Shown here piece after piece: positions 46,702-53,948 of a stretch of DNA of 64,000 bases. This DNA is from Streptomyces sp. MST-110588 (lineage in GTDB: Bacteria; Actinomycetota; Actinomycetes; Streptomycetales; Streptomycetaceae), in NCBI RefSeq assembly GCF_022695595.1, contig NZ_CP074380.1, positions 4,042,001 through 4,106,000 on the forward strand, read 5' to 3'. How positions within the stretch are numbered: position 1 is the stretch's first letter; every line of letters starts with the position of its first letter. A program made the translations under genes and the position numbers. The notes beneath the pieces were generated by a model that saw nothing but the letters and a program-made list of their open reading frames with translations, was not told the DNA's origin and ran no database searches.

Positions 46702-48426
46702 TCAGTTCGGCAGCGGGAAGTCCGGCCCCACCGTCAGGGTCACCACGCCCGGCGCCGCCCCCGCTGCCCCGGCCGTCCCGGTGGCCTTGGTACCCGGGAA
46801 GCGGGACGCCAGCACCTCGGCCTGGGCCTTGAGCGCGGCGGGAGCGCCGACCTCGGTCCTGGTGACGTTCGCGGGAGCGTTGCCGGTGGCCACGACCGTG
46901 AAGCCCAGCCTGCGCACCTGCTCGGCCGCCTTGGCCCCCACGCCCGTACGGCCCGTCCCGTTCAGGACCCGGACCTTCACCGAGCGGGCGGTGATCGGGT
47001 TCTTGGACGCCTCGGCCAGCTTCTTCTTGTCCACCTCGCGGTCGTGCGCCAGGTCGCTGAACAACTGGCCGGCCTGTGGGTACTGCCAGATCACATTGGC
47101 CTTGTCGGTGGGGACGTCGGCCTCGCGTGAGTAGTTCGGCACGGTCAGGAAAGTCAGCCGGTTGCTGGGGATGTCCTTGACGGTGGAGGCGAGTTCGGAC
47201 AGCGGCTTGACGCCCGCCAGGTCCTTGTCGGTGGTCAGCGACTTGGTCGCCGAGTCCAGGAACCCGTACAGCGCGGTCGGGCTGGAGAGCTTGGACTGGG
47301 CCTTCTCCCCGAGGGCCTTCATGAACTCCTGCTGCCGCCCGATGCGCCCGAGGTCGGAGCCGTCACCGACGCTGTAGCGGGTACGGACGTAGCCCAGCGC
47401 CTTCTCGTCGGTGACGTTCTGGCAGCCGGCGTCCATGTCCAGGTGCGCCTTCTTGTCGTGGATGGCGTGCTTGGGACAGACCTCGATGCCGCCCAGCGCG
47501 TTGACCATGCCCTTGAAGCCCTGGAAGTCCACCGAGACGAAGTGGTCGATGCGCAGCCCGGTGTTCTTCTCCACGGTCTTGATGGTGCAGGCCGCGGCGT
47601 TGGCGATGTCGCCGCTCTCACCGCCGATGGAGAACGCCTCGTTTATCTTGAAGTGGTGCGGCTTGGACATGACGCCCTTGCCCTTGTCGCACGCCGGGAT
47701 AGGCACCCAGGAGTCACGGGGGAAGGACACGGCGGTGGCCCACTCGCGGTTGGCGGCGATGTGCAGCACCATCAGCGTGTCCGACTGCATGGTCTCCAGG
47801 TTCTTGCCGTACTTGGCGTTGGCGCCCGCACGGCTGTCGGAGCCGACCACGAGGATGTTCTTGGACCCGGGGCTGAGGTTGGCGGGCCGGTCGCCGCCGA
47901 GCCGGCTGCCGACGTCCGCGCCGTGGATGTTGCTGTCCAAGTGCTGGTAGACCCAGGCGCCGACGCCCGCGGTGACCAGCAGGAGTACGCCGATGACACC
48001 GCCGGTCCAGGCCAGGATGCGCCCGCGCCGGGTCATCCGTGCCTTGCCGGCCTTCCGGGATCCGCCGGCCCGGTGGCCCTGGCCGGACGGCCGGCCCCGG
48101 TTGGCGGTGCGGGCCGCGGCGCGTGAGGAGGGCGGTCCGGAGCGGCCGGCTTCCGCGGCGCCCGTACGGCCGTGGTGCGCCGCGCTCGTACGGCCGCGGT
48201 CCGGTGAGGCCGTACGACCGTGCCCGGAGGAGTCCGTACGTCCGTGACCGGAGGAGTCCGTACGTCCGTAGCCGGACGGTTCCGTACGACCGTGGTCCGC
48301 CGGGTTCGTGCGGCCGGGGCCCGCGCCACCTGTGCGGCCGGCTCCCGGAGCGCTCGTACGGTCCGGGCCCGCGGCGCCCTTGCGCCGGCCGGAAGTGCCC
48401 CGCCGGGGCCTGTCCCTGTCATGCAC
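46702..48426 (-). CDS. LytR-CpsA-Psr (LCP) cell-wall ligase
   Basis: A 574-residue LCP protein; the GTG start at 48426 has AGAAGGA upstream. Residues 1-125 are a repeat-rich cytoplasmic tail (GRTDSSGHGRTDSSGHGRT type). One membrane helix follows near 137-160. The LCP catalytic domain (about 190-345) has ILVVGSDSRAGANAKYG, QSDTLMVLHIA, SFPRDSWV and YVRTRYSVGDGSDLGRIGRQ, the Arg/Asp residues that bind polyprenyl pyrophosphate. A LytR C-terminal domain covers about 470-565. It attaches glycopolymers to peptidoglycan outside the membrane. A BlaI-type operator lies 170 bases upstream. Confidence 0.92.
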   Translation of the reverse strand: MHDRDRPRRGTSGRRKGAAGPDRTSAPGAGRTGGAGPGRTNPADHGRTEPSGYGRTDSSGHGRTDSSGHGRTASPDRGRTSAAHHGRTGAAEAGRSGPPSSRAAARTANRGRPSGQGHRAGGSRKAGKARMTRRGRILAWTGGVIGVLLLVTAGVGAWVYQHLDSNIHGADVGSRLGGDRPANLSPGSKNILVVGSDSRAGANAKYGKNLETMQSDTLMVLHIAANREWATAVSFPRDSWVPIPACDKGKGVMSKPHHFKINEAFSIGGESGDIANAAACTIKTVEKNTGLRIDHFVSVDFQGFKGMVNALGGIEVCPKHAIHDKKAHLDMDAGCQNVTDEKALGYVRTRYSVGDGSDLGRIGRQQEFMKALGEKAQSKLSSPTALYGFLDSATKSLTTDKDLAGVKPLSELASTVKDIPSNRLTFLTVPNYSREADVPTDKANVIWQYPQAGQLFSDLAHDREVDKKKLAEASKNPITARSVKVRVLNGTGRTGVGAKAAEQVRRLGFTVVATGNAPANVTRTEVGAPAALKAQAEVLASRFPGTKATGTAGAAGAAPGVVTLTVGPDFPLPN

Positions 48427-48596: not shown

Positions 48597-48614
48597 TTCT
48601 ACATACCTGTAGAA
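48597..48614. promoter_or_regulatory. BlaI-type operator upstream of the LCP gene
   Basis: TTCTACA-TACC-TGTAGAA is a perfect 7-base dyad of 18 bases. It has the same TACA-N4-TGTA core as the sites at 50336 and 51651. On the minus strand, TAGAGT just downstream (RC of 48585-48590) could be a -10, with the dyad over the -35 region. The regulator is very probably the BlaI encoded at 49684-50238. The rest of the gap 48427-48733 is without a recognisable gene. Confidence 0.75.
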
Positions 48615-48733
48615 ACCTACTGTGACGGGACGGATACAGCATCGCCGTCATCGGGCCGCGGTGCGGACTCCCGCGTACGGACGCCTCGGGCCGCGGCACA
48701 GCGGACACAGTGCACCACACGCGGTGCGAAGTG

Positions 48734-49672
48734 TCACAGTGGCGTCGCGGTTTTCAGCACCAGGAAGAGCGCGACCGCCGCGTTGAGCGAGGACAGCGCG
48801 GAGGCGGCGGTACCGGCCGCGGCCACCAGCGCGGCGAACCCGGCCGGGGTCAGCGCCGGCGGCCAGCTCCGGGCGGGCGGCACCGGGGCGAGCAGCGCCG
48901 CCACCCGGCGCGGCACCGGCCCCGGCCCGGGCGCCGCGAAGTGCGCCAACTCCGGTGTCACGGCGGGCCGGGAGACCAGCGCCGCCTTGCCGACGGCGCG
49001 CGCGGTCAGCCGTCGGTCGCCGACCGCCCGGGCCGCCTCCTCATCCGCCCAGCGCTCCGTACTGAAGGCGACCGCCGAACGCAGCGGAAGCAGCAGCGGA
49101 TTCAGACATCCGGCCAGCCGTACGGTCAGCAGGAAGCGGTGGTGGCGGCCCGTCAGGTGGGCCCGCTCGTGTGCGAACAACGCCCGCCGCTCGTCCGCGT
49201 CCAGGGTCCGCAGCATGCCGCGCGAGACGGCTATCCGGCCGGGTCTGCCGGGCACGGCGTAGGCGTACGGGGCGTCGTCCGGCAGTACCGCCACGTCCGA
49301 GCGGTGCGGCAGGACGTCCAGGGCACGGTGCGTACGGGCCCGTACGCGGTAGTGGCGGCGCAGCTCGCCCGCACAGGTCACCAGGGCGGCGGTGAGGGCG
49401 ACGATGCCGGCCGTACCGGCGGTCTCGACGTAGGGGACGGCGGCCCGTACCTCCGGGTCCGACCAACTGTCGGGCAGTGGGTTGCCCGGCAACTGGGCCG
49501 TGCCCACGACCACCAGCAGCCCCAGGCACAGCGTGCTGCACACGGCCAGGACGGCTGCCAGCACGGTCAGCAGCCGGGTGGTGCCGCGCGGGTGGAGGTG
49601 CTGGCCGGCGAGGCGGGCGATGGGCAGCGCGGTCAGGGGCAGGACGAGCGGCAGGAAGACGAAGACGCCCAC
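48734..49672 (-). CDS. M56-family (BlaR1-like) membrane metalloprotease
   Basis: A 312-residue membrane protein with hydrophobic helices near 1-20, 35-60, 85-103 and at the C-terminus. The zinc motif is HERAH, in LFAHERAHLTGRHH, near 168, followed by the ERWADEEAARAVGD helix that supplies the third ligand. It lacks the beta-lactam sensor domain of BlaR1, so its signal is unknown. It lies 11 bases after blaI in the same direction. The pair should form a proteolytic switch: the protease is activated by envelope stress and inactivates the repressor. Confidence 0.88.
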   Translation of the reverse strand: MGVFVFLPLVLPLTALPIARLAGQHLHPRGTTRLLTVLAAVLAVCSTLCLGLLVVVGTAQLPGNPLPDSWSDPEVRAAVPYVETAGTAGIVALTAALVTCAGELRRHYRVRARTHRALDVLPHRSDVAVLPDDAPYAYAVPGRPGRIAVSRGMLRTLDADERRALFAHERAHLTGRHHRFLLTVRLAGCLNPLLLPLRSAVAFSTERWADEEAARAVGDRRLTARAVGKAALVSRPAVTPELAHFAAPGPGPVPRRVAALLAPVPPARSWPPALTPAGFAALVAAAGTAASALSSLNAAVALFLVLKTATPL

Positions 49673-49683
49673 GGATCAGTACC

Positions 49684-50238
49684 TCAGTCCTCGCGGCCGG
49701 GGGCGTGCGCCGGCGCTTCGGTCCTGGCGCGTCCGGTGTCTTCGTCGCCTCTGGCGTCCCCGGCGTCTGCGGCGTCCCTCACGTCCCCGGCGTTCGTGGC
49801 GTCCCTCACGTCCCCGGCGTTCGTGGCGTCCCTCACGTCCCCGGCGTCCGATGCGCGCTCCAGCAGGGAGCGCAGCAGTTGCTCGTCGTGCTCGGAGAGC
49901 GCCGAGACGAAGCTGGTCAGTACGGCGTCCCGGTCCGTCTCGCTGTCCAGTACGCGCCGCATCCGCAGGGCGGCGAGCCCGGCCTCGTCGGCGGCGGGCG
50001 TCCACACGTACGAGCGACCGTCCCGCTCGCGGGTCACGGCCTTCTTCGCCCGGAGGCGGGAGAGGATCGTCATGACCGTGGTGTACGCCAGGTCGCCGCC
50101 GAGGCGCTGCTGCACCCACGCGGCGGTGGCCGGGCCGGGGGACTGGTGCAGCGCGGCCAGCACCTGGGCCTCCAGTTCGCCCTGACCGCGCCGTCGCACG
50201 CCGTCGCGGCCGGCTCCGCCGAAAGCGTCTTCGCCCAT
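49684..50238 (-). CDS. blaI: BlaI/MecI-family repressor
   Basis: A 184-residue repressor. The winged helix (about 18-95) reads QGELEAQVLAALHQSPGPAT, then GDLAYTTVMTILSRLRAKKA and RERDGRSYVWTP, typical of Penicillinase_R proteins. The dimerisation helices follow to about 128. The last 55 residues are unusual: a 9-residue repeat DATNAGDVR encoded by a 27-base tandem repeat. It should bind the TACA-N4-TGTA operators at 50336, 48597 and 51651, including its own divergent promoter with terD. Confidence 0.88.
   Translation of the reverse strand: MGEDAFGGAGRDGVRRRGQGELEAQVLAALHQSPGPATAAWVQQRLGGDLAYTTVMTILSRLRAKKAVTRERDGRSYVWTPAADEAGLAALRMRRVLDSETDRDAVLTSFVSALSEHDEQLLRSLLERASDAGDVRDATNAGDVRDATNAGDVRDAADAGDARGDEDTGRARTEAPAHAPGRED
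49772..49852. repeat. 27-base tandem repeat inside blaI
   Basis: Three near-perfect copies starting at 49772, 49799 and 49826 (GCGTCCCTCACGTCCCCGGC...). The length is a multiple of three, so copy-number change would keep frame and only lengthen the BlaI tail. Confidence 0.85.
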
Positions 50239-50335
50239 GCCGTCGCCTCCCAGCGAGCTCCGCGCTCCGTGCGGCCGGAGCGTCGGGGCATTTTACTGAG
50301 CCGGCCGGGAACACGGGGCGGCTCTCGTTCGTATC

Positions 50336-50353
50336 TTCTACAACGCTGTAGAT
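50336..50353. promoter_or_regulatory. BlaI-type operator, blaI / terD divergent promoter
   Basis: TTCTACA-ACGC-TGTAGAT, one mismatch from a perfect dyad. It is 77 bases before the terD ATG and 98 bases before the blaI ATG. On the plus strand the right arm contains TAGATT, a likely terD -10, so bound BlaI would block the polymerase. The sequence TGTAGATTTTG is repeated at the terB site. Confidence 0.8.
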
Positions 50354-50429
50354 TTTGTGGTCCGCCACACATGGCACGCACCGCGAACAGTGCAACGCAC
50401 GTATATCACCCAACACCGGGAGGAAACCC

Positions 50430-51005
50430 ATGGGAGTCACGCTGGCCAAGGGCGGCAACGTCTCGCTGTCGAAGGAGGCGCCCGGCCTGACCGCCGTCAC
50501 CGTCGGCCTCGGCTGGGACGTCCGTACGACCACGGGCGCCGACTACGACCTCGACGCCAGCGCGCTGCTCTGCAACGGCTCCGGCAAGGTCGCCTCGGAC
50601 CAACACTTCGTCTTCTACAACAACCTCACCAGCCCCGACGGCTCGGTGCAGCACACCGGCGACAACCTGACCGGTGAGGGCGAGGGGGACGACGAGACGA
50701 TCAACGTGACGCTCAGCGGCGTACCGGCCGAGATCGAGAAGATCGTCTTCCCGGTGTCGATCCACGACGCCGAGAGCCGCGGCCAGAGCTTCGGCCAGGT
50801 CCGCAACGCCTACATCCGTGTGGTCAACCAGGCGGACGGCAAGGAGCTGGCGCGCTACGACCTGAGCGAGGACGCCTCGACCGAGACCGCGATGGTCTTC
50901 GGTGAGCTGTACCGCAACGGCGGGGAGTGGAAGTTCCGGGCGGTGGGCCAGGGGTACGCCTCCGGGCTGGCGGGCATCGCGTCCGACTACGGAGTCAACG
51001 TCTGA
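50430..51005 (+). CDS. terD: TerD-family calcium-binding stress protein
   Basis: A 191-residue TerD protein starting [20 protein letters not shown], preceded by GGGAGGAAA. The Ca-binding motifs are [12 protein letters not shown] near 38 and [14 protein letters not shown], and the end reads [13 protein letters not shown] as in the family. TerD proteins act with TerB and vWA proteins at the membrane in stress and tellurite responses, and Streptomyces has many copies affecting development. It is single here, controlled through the operator at 50336-50353. Confidence 0.95.
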
Positions 51006-51015
51006 CGGAACGGCT

Positions 51016-51053
51016 GGGCGGGGGCCCGTCCCTTGGGGGGCGGGCCCCCGCCC
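51016..51053. terminator. Terminator between convergent terD and terB
   Basis: GGGCGGGGGCCCG (51016-51028) pairs perfectly with CGGGCCCCCGCCC (51041-51053). It is ten bases after the terD stop. The GC stem without a T run is usual for Streptomyces. Confidence 0.75.
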
Positions 51054-51148
51054 ATGCCGTCTGTTCGCGTGCCCTCGCCTTGGCGTGCCCTCCCCTTACA
51101 GGGGCCGCCGGCCGCCGGCTACCGCTCAGCGGCCGGTTCCGCCCCCTC

Positions 51149-51604
51149 TCACAGGTCGAACTCGGCCGGCGTGATGTCCAGCGCGTAGCAGACCTCGCGG
51201 ACGACGGCCTGCTCGGTCTTGTCGAAGTCCCCGTCGGCGCCGCCGATGACGATGCCGATCTGGATGACGGCACGCGCCTCGACCGGCTTCTTCTTCACCT
51301 TGCCGATGTCCTGCATCACGCTGACCTTGCCGAAGTCGAAGTCGGCGGTCAGCTTGTCCAGGTACGCGTCGAAGCGGCGCCGCAGATCGTCCGCGGGGAA
51401 GTTCTGGAGCACCTCGTTGGTGGCGATGAGCTGGGCCACGCGCTGGCGCTCGGAGGGGTCCACGGAGCCGTCGGCGGCGGCCACCAGGGCGCACATCGCC
51501 ATGCTCGCGTCCCGGAAGGCGCCGCTCTTGAGGTCGTTCTTCTTCGCGATGAGCTGCGACTGCATCGTCTGGGCGGAATCCTTGATCCGGTCCCACAGAG
51601 CCAT
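51149..51604 (-). CDS. terB: TerB-family tellurite-resistance protein
   Basis: A 151-residue helical TerB protein. It starts MALWDRIKDSAQTMQSQLIA at ATG 51604 with AAGGAG upstream. The acidic helix pairs ALVAAADGSVDPSERQRVAQ and IGGADGDFDKTEQAVVREVC are the metal-binding TerB motifs. TerB partners TerD-type proteins in membrane-associated stress complexes. Forty-seven bases upstream lies the BlaI-type operator, so it should be co-regulated with terD though transcribed in the opposite direction. Confidence 0.93.
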   Translation of the reverse strand: MALWDRIKDSAQTMQSQLIAKKNDLKSGAFRDASMAMCALVAAADGSVDPSERQRVAQLIATNEVLQNFPADDLRRRFDAYLDKLTADFDFGKVSVMQDIGKVKKKPVEARAVIQIGIVIGGADGDFDKTEQAVVREVCYALDITPAEFDL

Positions 51605-51650
51605 GTGGATCTCCTTGTCGTTCCCGCAGTGCGAGTAATGCAGAAGCAAA

Positions 51651-51668
51651 ATCTACAGGCTTGTAGAA
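51651..51668. promoter_or_regulatory. BlaI-type operator upstream of terB
   Basis: ATCTACA-GGCT-TGTAGAA, a one-mismatch dyad. On the minus strand the right half reads TGTAGATTTTG, identical to the terD site. TAGATT is a plausible -10, so repressor and polymerase would compete. Confidence 0.8.
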
Positions 51669-51927: not shown

Positions 51928-52203
51928 GTGACCTTCGCCCGTCCGCTGCCCTCGTCCGGACTGGCCGAGATCCGTATCGTCGCCGCCACCTCCGAGGTGG
52001 CCCGGCAGGTCGCCGAGGCGCTGCGCCGCCGCTTCGCAGGCGAGGACGCGCTCGGCTGTCCGGCGCACTCCGACGGCAGTGGCACCGTCCTGTATCTGAC
52101 GGTCGACACGATGCGCGAGCACGGCCGGCCCGGACCCGTCCGGCCGCGGCGTACCCCCAGCGACCCGGACACCGGACACGCGCACCCGGACAACTCCGGC
52201 TGA
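51928..52203 (+). CDS. Hypothetical protein
   Basis: A 91-residue protein starting at GTG 51928 (MTFARPLPSSGLAEIRIVAA), with a GGGA site about ten bases upstream. The first 65 residues show an alternating beta/alpha pattern (IRIVAATSEVARQVAEALRRRF, then TVLYLTVD). The end is basic and Pro-rich. It resembles small conserved Streptomyces proteins of unknown function; I cannot name the family. It stands alone. Confidence 0.65.
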   Translation: MTFARPLPSSGLAEIRIVAATSEVARQVAEALRRRFAGEDALGCPAHSDGSGTVLYLTVDTMREHGRPGPVRPRRTPSDPDTGHAHPDNSG

Positions 52204-52550: not shown

Positions 52551-53948
52551 TCAGCGCAGCCGCAGCGCCGTACGGATCGTCCTGAAGAGGTCCGTCTGGT
52601 CGGTGACCCCCAGCACGCGGAACGCCTGCGGCCCCTGAGCCGCGATCCGCACCTCGGTACCCGTGTGCTCCTGCGACTGACCAGGCGTGTTGGTCGAGTA
52701 GTTGACCTTCAGCCGGCTGCCCTCGTTGGTGACGAGCGTGGAGGACAGGCCGGGCGGGTTGGCCTCCAGCGGCACGATCTGGCTGGAGTGGCCGTGGTCG
52801 GCGGTGGTGACCACCAGCGTGTCCGGGTGCTTGGCGGCGTAGTCGCGGGCCACCTTCACCGCACGGTCGAACGCCGCGGTCTCACCGATCTGCCCGCAGG
52901 GGTCGGCCGCGTGGTCCTGCTTGTCGATCGAGGCGCCCTCGATCTGGAGGAAGAAGCCCTTGTCCGAGCCCTTGCCGCCGTGGCCCTTGGAGGACCGCGC
53001 CCGCTGCTTGTCCTCCAGCAGCGCGATCGCCTTCTTGGCCTGCTCGTCCAGCGCCGGGGTGCCGGCGGGCCGCTTGGAGTTGGAGGTGGTGCAGCGCTGC
53101 GGGTCGGTGCCGCCGACTGCGGCCGGCTTCCCGGTCCACTCCACCGGCACGTTGCCCGGCGCGAAGAGCCCCAGCACCGGTTTGCCGCCCTTGACGCTCT
53201 TGACGCCCTTCAGGCCCTTGGCGTCCGTGACGACCTGGTAGCCGAGCTTGCTTGCCTGCTGGAGCACCGTCATGCCCTTGTACCGGCCCTCGGTGATCTT
53301 CTGGTCGAAGCGCTGCTTGCCGCCGCCCAGCAGTACGTCCACCTTGTGGTTGACGCTCTGCTCGGCGATCGAACCCGGTCCGCCCTTGCCGATCGTGTCC
53401 ACGGCGCACTTGGCCATGTCGGCCGGGCCCTGGCAGCTACGGTCGGTGGCGTGCGAGGCGAGCACGGCCGGGGTGGCGTCGGTGAGTTCGGCGGTGGTGA
53501 CGGATCCGGTGGCGTAACCGTTCTTCTGGGCCAGCTCAAGGATCGTCGGCAGCGCCTTGTTGGTACCCGGCGTCTTGGAGATCCGGCCGTTGACCGTCTT
53601 GTGGCCGGTGGCCCAGCCGCTGCCGCTGGCCGCCGAGTCGGTGACGTAGTCCGGCTTGCCCTTCTCATCGACCGAGTACGTCGTGTACGCGCCGGTCATC
53701 GGGAGCCTGTCCATGTTCAGCCGGCCCGCGGCACCCACGGTGTAGTCCCGCGCGAGGGTGATCTCCGAGTCGCCCATGCCGTCACCGATCAGCAGGATGA
53801 CGTTCTTGGCCGGGCCGCCCTTGACCGCGTGCTCCACCTGCTCCTGCGTGCCGAACGCGGAGGCTCCGGCGGGCACGGCCACGGCCGTGGCGAGCACCAC
53901 GGTGGCGCAGGCTATGACGTGGCGGCGGGACAGGCGCACTCTTCGCAT
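52551..53948 (-). CDS. phoA: Secreted alkaline phosphatase (PhoA type)
   Basis: A 465-residue enzyme from ATG 53948 with GAGGAG upstream. A signal peptide (about 1-31) with RRVRLSRRHVIACATVVLAT could use Tat or Sec. Metal/active-site motifs are NVILLIGDGMGDSEIT near 46, DSAASGSGWATGHKT with the nucleophilic Ser near 103, DKQDHAADPCGQIGE and TTADHGHSSQI. These are as in the E. coli-type alkaline phosphatases that use two zinc and one magnesium ions. It releases phosphate outside the cell. A PHO box lies 53 bases upstream, so PhoR-PhoP induction is expected. Confidence 0.93.
   Translation of the reverse strand: MRRVRLSRRHVIACATVVLATAVAVPAGASAFGTQEQVEHAVKGGPAKNVILLIGDGMGDSEITLARDYTVGAAGRLNMDRLPMTGAYTTYSVDEKGKPDYVTDSAASGSGWATGHKTVNGRISKTPGTNKALPTILELAQKNGYATGSVTTAELTDATPAVLASHATDRSCQGPADMAKCAVDTIGKGGPGSIAEQSVNHKVDVLLGGGKQRFDQKITEGRYKGMTVLQQASKLGYQVVTDAKGLKGVKSVKGGKPVLGLFAPGNVPVEWTGKPAAVGGTDPQRCTTSNSKRPAGTPALDEQAKKAIALLEDKQRARSSKGHGGKGSDKGFFLQIEGASIDKQDHAADPCGQIGETAAFDRAVKVARDYAAKHPDTLVVTTADHGHSSQIVPLEANPPGLSSTLVTNEGSRLKVNYSTNTPGQSQEHTGTEVRIAAQGPQAFRVLGVTDQTDLFRTIRTALRLR

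Follow-up and report, generated by a model that had tools for sequence, protein, structure and literature searches.

A BlaI-type repressor gene and a membrane metalloprotease gene as the probable control locus of an envelope-stress regulon in Streptomyces

The DNA analysed here, a stretch of 64,000 nucleotides from Streptomyces sp. MST-110588 (NZ_CP074380.1, positions 4,042,001 to 4,106,000; hereafter the window), contains a gene for a BlaI-type repressor (blaI, whose product is called BlaI-A) followed by that of a membrane metalloprotease, and on either side of the pair lie genes for TerD- and TerB-family proteins and for a LytR-CpsA-Psr (LCP) glycopolymer transferase. Three copies of the dyad TCTACA-N4-TGTAGA, free of mismatches and the sole perfect ones in the window, were found ahead of the LCP gene, between blaI and the divergent terD, and ahead of terB, in agreement with the number and placement proposed in an earlier sequence-only reading. 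Dyad and start codon are separated by 171 bp at the LCP gene, 98 bp at blaI, 77 bp at terD and 47 bp at terB. The features of the locus are:

46702..48426, minus strand: LCP glycopolymer transferase with a LytR_C domain (PF03816, 152.9 bits; PF13399, 51 bits)
48598..48613: LCP-facing perfect dyad TCTACAtaccTGTAGA, with a -10-like hexamer TAGAGT about 10 bp downstream
48734..49672, minus strand: membrane metalloprotease (M48/M56-like), 312 aa, HERAH at residue 168 (PF01435, 51.8 bits)
49684..50238, minus strand: blaI (BlaI-A), Penicillinase_R repressor of the BlaI/MecI/CopY family, 184 aa, no cysteine (PF03965, 85.5 bits, cut-off 22.6)
50337..50352: perfect dyad TCTACAacgcTGTAGA between the divergent genes blaI and terD, with TAGATT overlapping the terD-facing edge
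50430..51005, plus strand: terD, TerD-domain protein (PF02342, 293.3 bits)
51149..51604, minus strand: terB, TerB-family protein (PF05099, 99.5 bits)
51652..51667: perfect dyad TCTACAggctTGTAGA, facing terB, with TAGATT overlapping the dyad edge

The core TACA-N4-TGTA is expected 0.03 times in the window, and three copies were reached in none of 100 shuffles; with up to three mismatches allowed, nine places were found in total against 3.9 expected, and the six imperfect dyads are treated as background. The arrangement is conserved in 17 Streptomyces loci, S. rimosus and S. monomycini included, that were retrieved with the BlaI protein and not with the motif. A dyad separates protease and LCP genes in 15 of the 16 related loci with an LCP gene in view (exception L027), occupies the TerD/BlaI gap in all ten having TerD there, and precedes TerB in nine of 11 (exceptions L036 and L038), while in L031 and L032 the LCP site is the sole dyad. 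The coupling to TerD, TerB and LCP proposed earlier, for which conservation of the sites ahead of terD and terB had been suggested as a check, is thus upheld in relatives.

Across the 7.9-Mb single-contig genome of the source strain there are six perfect dyads, with about 0.025 expected from composition and none for a reversed-pattern control. The three remote copies lie 71 bp ahead of a second TerD gene (L020), 167 bp ahead of a gene for a 93-aa PF04226 (GlsB-like) membrane protein (L019), and 24 bp ahead of a second blaI-type gene that is followed by a second protease gene and has a PAP2 gene divergent from it (L021). The regulon had been described as local, a description that does not hold, since the source genome has these three further perfect sites and the genus supplies more target families. 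Allowing up to two mismatches gave 41 places genome-wide against 31 for the reversed control; of the 35 beyond the perfect set, one has a single mismatch and 34 have two, which leaves the perfect dyads well separated from the rest. These 35 places are treated as background, except one half of a tandem at 5793582. TerD genes are numerous in this genome (ten PF02342 matches), and two of them have a dyad ahead of them. Another candidate regulator, the third BlaI paralogue (at 3403959), was rejected, being distant in sequence (29% identity) and having no dyad in its 3.3-kb locus or in the genome-wide list at that place.

A survey of 41 genomes of the genus, the source included, found the 15-mer CTACAnnnnTGTAGA in 28 of them, with 74 forward matches against three for the reversed control. 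The 83 core sites of the survey were compared with 13 query classes, and 74 of them face one class or more, where facing means within 450 bp (800 bp for LCP) and one site may face two genes. By class, sites number 17 for BlaI, 15 for TerD, 14 for TerB, nine for BlaI_B (the second BlaI), seven each for TerD2 and Spo0M, six each for LCP and PAP2, five each for DedA, CNNM and TatA-like proteins, four for a 73-aa protein and one for GlsB. When the count is limited to the fetched survey loci, a class is faced by 68 of 77 sites and by 807 of 5000 positions drawn at random from those loci; as the loci were centred on sites, this control is conservative. The Spo0M, CNNM, TatA-like, DedA and 73-aa queries were picked for their proximity to sites, so that their counts are no independent test; the remaining queries came from the source genome. 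Family labels rest on the Pfam match of one representative per class, the 73-aa protein having none, and some class matches are weak (29-31% identity for DedA, 38-44% for three of at least four CNNM matches). TatA-like (four) and GlsB (two) genes were found again beside dyads in BlaI-retrieved loci. As a control with paralogues, none of 37 core Spo0M genes has a site within 400 bp, compared with seven of 23 other Spo0M matches (p 6e-4), the split having been made by score and place and at least four of the 23 being partial matches. A site precedes one of 16 more distant TerB matches, and TerD is represented by 10-16 matches per genome in 39 of the 41 genomes. The small protein without a Pfam match (73 residues in L066) lies beside dyads at L066:3237-3458, L074:3101-3343 and L092:5439-5804, and in L066 and L092 it directly precedes an accessory Spo0M gene.

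The occurrence of sites follows that of BlaI-A. We defined BlaI-A by E <= 1e-41, a threshold set after a gap in the scores was seen (next value 4.9e-32), and a strict A-type site by a perfect core with A/T outer bases. BlaI-A was found in 26 of the 41 survey genomes; 17 of these 26 (19 when near variants are included) have strict A-type sites, against none of the 15 others (Fisher 3e-5 for 17 of 26). Among 29 further genomes of the genus, taken from a survey of the class, such sites are present in 17 of the 19 that have BlaI-A and absent from all 10 that lack it (Fisher 3e-6; reversed control 0), absence of BlaI-A here resting on up to 11 scored candidates per genome. Presence of TerD does not by itself account for the sites, since TerD is found in all 41 genomes. 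In the class survey of 296 genomes, BlaI-A-level matches were, among those listed, confined to the genus, the best outside it reaching 1.0e-30. Together with the conserved positions, this distribution supports the view that the three window dyads behave as operators of BlaI-A.

When TACA-Nk-TGTA was counted for k from 0 to 8 in 59 BlaI-retrieved loci (196 kb), 44 matches had k = 4, one had k = 5 and the other spacings had none; the 30 dyads that precede a BlaI-family gene by no more than 400 bp all had k = 4. The N4 core had been presented as the established BlaI site, a claim to be corrected: the published CopY core, ascribed to BlaI and MecI too, is TACA-N2-TGTA (PMC7253601), which does not occur in the 196 kb of BlaI loci, and the Bacillus licheniformis operator oligonucleotide contains TTACATATGTAA (PMC3305447). 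Set against these published forms, the k = 4 counts indicate a real departure, the N4 spacer being the usage of this clade. Of the ten loci L210 to L219, the first from the same genus and nine from other families, one has an N4 dyad and none an N2 dyad, numbers too small for a conclusion on operators outside the genus.

Dyads also lie on or beside putative core promoter elements. The stretch TGTAGATTTTG is identical at the terD-facing and terB-facing sites, as reported earlier, and the TAGATT noted at these dyads is present; for TerB this pattern generalizes only in part. On the gene-side dyad edge, TAG[AT]TT was found in the survey at 14 of 15 TerD, six of seven TerD2, three of five TatA-like and three of 14 TerB sites, against one of 17 BlaI-facing and none of six LCP-facing sites; TerD and TerD2 sites combined (20/22) differ from the BlaI-facing ones with a Fisher value of 6e-8. 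In BlaI-retrieved loci, ten of 12 TerB sites carry it, two of these lying in L023 and L191, which are the same DNA and by which the two sets of BlaI-retrieved loci overlap by one. By this comparison the -10-like element that overlaps the dyad signals orientation. TANNNT is mentioned as the usual Streptomyces -10 (PMC8780764), and the overlaps, together with TAGAGT at the LCP site, place the dyads where a repressor would need them.

We consider it likely that the locus in the window controls an envelope/membrane-stress regulon spread over the genome, with BlaI as its repressor and a sensor-less membrane metalloprotease as the agent of release. Comparison between genomes shows the sites and where they lie, the link to BlaI-A and the target families; the mechanism they suggest is the following. 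A BlaI-A dimer would bind the dyads on or beside core promoters and would repress its own blaI-protease operon, the divergent terD, terB and the LCP gene, as well as two remote genes, those of the second TerD and of the GlsB-like membrane protein. Damage to the envelope or membrane, perhaps read through a short conserved outside loop of the protease, would lead the protease to inactivate BlaI, presumably by cleavage, and the entire target set would then be derepressed. The families concerned (Ter, Spo0M, LCP, CNNM, TatA-like, PAP2 and DedA) suggest a role in protecting envelope and membrane. If this is correct, the BlaI/protease switch, familiar chiefly from beta-lactam resistance, was put to use for general envelope stress as well. 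The everyday role of TerD is unclear despite its abundance, and a common operator would link particular copies to envelope/membrane partners and to one repressor, making trigger, output and physiological role testable with one reporter.

Several observations weigh against this reading. The genomes are related, so that the Fisher values above overstate independence. Seven of the 26 survey genomes with BlaI-A lack an A-type dyad; one of them (G039) has a dyad with one mismatch ahead of TerD, and in the other six no dyad at zero to one mismatch was found in the BlaI locus of about 3 kb. Of the BlaI-A loci, 13 of 26 in the survey and 14 of 19 further ones have a dyad no more than 400 bp from BlaI. 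Cores also occur in three genomes that lack BlaI-A: perfect ones in G016 and G021, where the outer bases differ, and an imperfect one in G030. Nine of the 83 survey sites face no class, and the association of sites with TerB orthologues (13 of 24 in BlaI-A genomes, none of four otherwise) is not significant alone (p 0.10). The N4 spacer differs from the published N2 core, and no BlaR1 chain was among the solved structures matched by a profile of the protease family described below. The potential regulon of a Streptomyces avermitilis sigma factor includes a tellurium resistance protein (PMC8780764), and other Ter genes may therefore be under other control. Two of the BlaI-A loci without a dyad, L119 (1408-1425) and L121 (1390-1407), have in common a palindrome, ATGGGTGTCAxCACCCAT, upstream of blaI.

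The second BlaI/protease pair was missing from the earlier reading, which is incomplete in this respect: the pair shares the core dyad, mostly with other outer bases and often in tandem. Both paralogues might then bind one operator, A and B sites forming one merged regulon with cross-talk. The six-base half-site is indeed identical for the two types and A and B pairs coexist in one genome, yet several features separate them. Most sites of BlaI_B modules have G/C outer bases. Half of the sites in the G/C outer-base class (10/20) have a second dyad with one or two mismatches, always 19 bp away, against two of 63 in the other outer-base class (one at 19 bp) and 68 of 2000 random positions within 60 bp; ahead of the second BlaI of the source strain two dyads lie 19 bp apart (L021:7583-7617), and the tandem recurs at other B-type sites of the genus. 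The putative recognition helix reads LAYTTV or LAYSTV in all ten A rows and LARTTV in all six B rows. B-type sites are found in G009, G021, G022 and G036, all without BlaI-A, and no strict A-type site is present in any of the 25 genomes of both samples that lack BlaI-A. A merged regulon is, on this evidence, rather unlikely. The B sites face PAP2 and DedA-like genes. Beside B-type sites in L049 (3169-5478) and L055 (3191-5290) lie large related membrane proteins that by eye resemble FTR1-type iron permeases.

Returning to two separate branches under a BlaI-controlled stress response, a wider picture can be offered with some reserve. The sensor-less BlaI/metalloprotease pair may be a widespread Streptomyces counterpart of sigmaW, with TerD, TerB, accessory Spo0M, TatA-like, CNNM and LCP proteins as one protective unit; the duplicated pair B may run a membrane-lipid branch of PAP2 and DedA proteins, with three features keeping it separate: the operator's outer base pair, the replacement of Tyr by Arg in the recognition helix, and the tandem 19-bp layout. 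In Bacillus subtilis the yceCDEFGH operon is TerD-related. SigmaW regulates this operon as a secondary member of its regulon and spo0M as a core one (PMC3498285), which is an independent pairing of two of the target classes found here. The likeness has limits, since sigmaW is an extracytoplasmic function (ECF) sigma factor whereas the Streptomyces system pairs a repressor with a metalloprotease, and yceCDEFGH is merely a secondary operon of sigmaW, under sigmaB and sigmaM too.

The proteins resemble the BlaR1-BlaI and MecR1-MecI systems of Staphylococcus and Bacillus in several ways: a Penicillinase_R repressor adjoins a membrane HExxH metalloprotease, the promoter region is divergent and autoregulated (here as a site position, the dyad 98 bp upstream of blaI), and the half-sites are TACA/TGTA. 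They differ in the N4 spacing instead of N2, in targets scattered over the genome, in the lack of a beta-lactamase among the target classes, for which no separate search was made, and in the protease, in whose 312 aa a Pfam scan found no penicillin-binding domain. The enzyme had been called an M56 protease; a membrane HExxH metalloprotease it is, but it scores as Pfam M48, and its M56 match (PF05569) is 16.3 bits, below the cut-off of 31 and unlike BlaR1/MecR1. In 27 relatives PF01435 (M48) matches all and PF05569 matches 20 at E up to 0.01, and a profile of these relatives retrieved from the solved structures an M48 peptidase (3c37, 1e-5), HtpX (3cqb, 1.3e-5) and, as a third chain, the unrelated-looking 3g2m (4e-4). 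Hydropathy suggests about four transmembrane (TM) helices, near residues 1-19, 37-55, 84-102 and 288-306, a weaker peak at 179-197 being assigned to the protease domain. The loop between TM2 and TM3 (residues 58-84; GTAQLPGNPLPD.WSDPEVR.AVP) is predicted to lie outside and is strongly conserved among A proteases; that it acts as the sensor is speculation.

BlaI-A itself lacks the C-terminal Cys-X-Cys of CopY, having no cysteine. Its nearest solved relative is 2g9w (E 4.6e-8), which we take to be the BlaI of Mycobacterium tuberculosis (Rv1846c) and in which the stretch DLAYTTVM is identical. Going by the title of a 2009 paper of Sala et al., this protein reportedly has a multi-gene regulon, and we know of no link between that regulon and TerD, TerB or Spo0M. 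Among the papers listed from openly searchable literature, in which subscription titles are mostly lacking, none links Streptomyces BlaI with TerD, TerB or Spo0M, a weak negative. In Clostridium thermocellum, BlaI_0696 and BlaI_1845 were mapped by DAP-seq and are alike in their small, sharp regulons, autoregulation and repeated dyads per promoter; their motif is a different one, inverted GTCTAT repeats 5 nt apart, and their targets are mostly blaI/blaR1 operons and a few hypothetical genes (PMC8457756). In the C-terminal tail of the window BlaI (49771-49850) an in-frame 9-residue repeat, with 27-bp units starting at 49771, 49798 and 49825, was observed and was not seen in 16 aligned relatives.

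The kinship with BlaR1-BlaI raises a second alternative, a response to beta-lactams or peptidoglycan fragments in which BlaI is freed by a wall fragment or by a separate penicillin sensor, with TerD, TerB and LCP as secondary wall repair. A peptidoglycan dipeptide displaces B. licheniformis BlaI from its operator in vitro (PMC3305447), and LCP proteins act on the wall. In G016, a genome without BlaI-A, a BlaI relative and a dyad, CCTCTACA-N4-TGTAGAGG, face a class A penicillin-binding protein (L045:672-3283). With neither a penicillin-binding domain found in the protease nor a beta-lactamase among the 13 classes, the majority of which are membrane and stress families, we regard this as improbable. 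That a regulator other than BlaI recognises the dyads has in its favour that binding of BlaI to the sites is a prediction from sequence comparison and that some BlaI-A genomes have no dyad near blaI; it is very unlikely, considering that the sites follow BlaI-A in two genome samples and occupy the blaI promoter region, with the TACA/TGTA half-sites of the family (PMC7253601). Chance palindromes, of which the reversed control indicates a low background in the survey (three matches against 74), are effectively refuted by the conservation of dyad positions in the 17 related loci, the shuffle expectation of 0.03 and the reversed counts of zero in the source genome and the 29 further genomes.

Seven neighbouring proteins of the window were scanned for Ter families, genes further out lying beyond the scan, and only terD and terB were found; in the classical ter operon (terZABCDEF), by comparison, TerC, TerA and TerZ adjoin TerD and TerB. 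At the N-terminus of the LCP protein (48180-48300), GRTDSSGH-type repeat units form a low-complexity arm ahead of the TM helix. A 91-aa open reading frame adjoining terB (51928-52203) matches none of the Pfam or NCBIfam families at E 0.001, and a PhoA-type alkaline phosphatase gene (52551-53948) lies near terB, as it does in L030, L033, L034 and L042.

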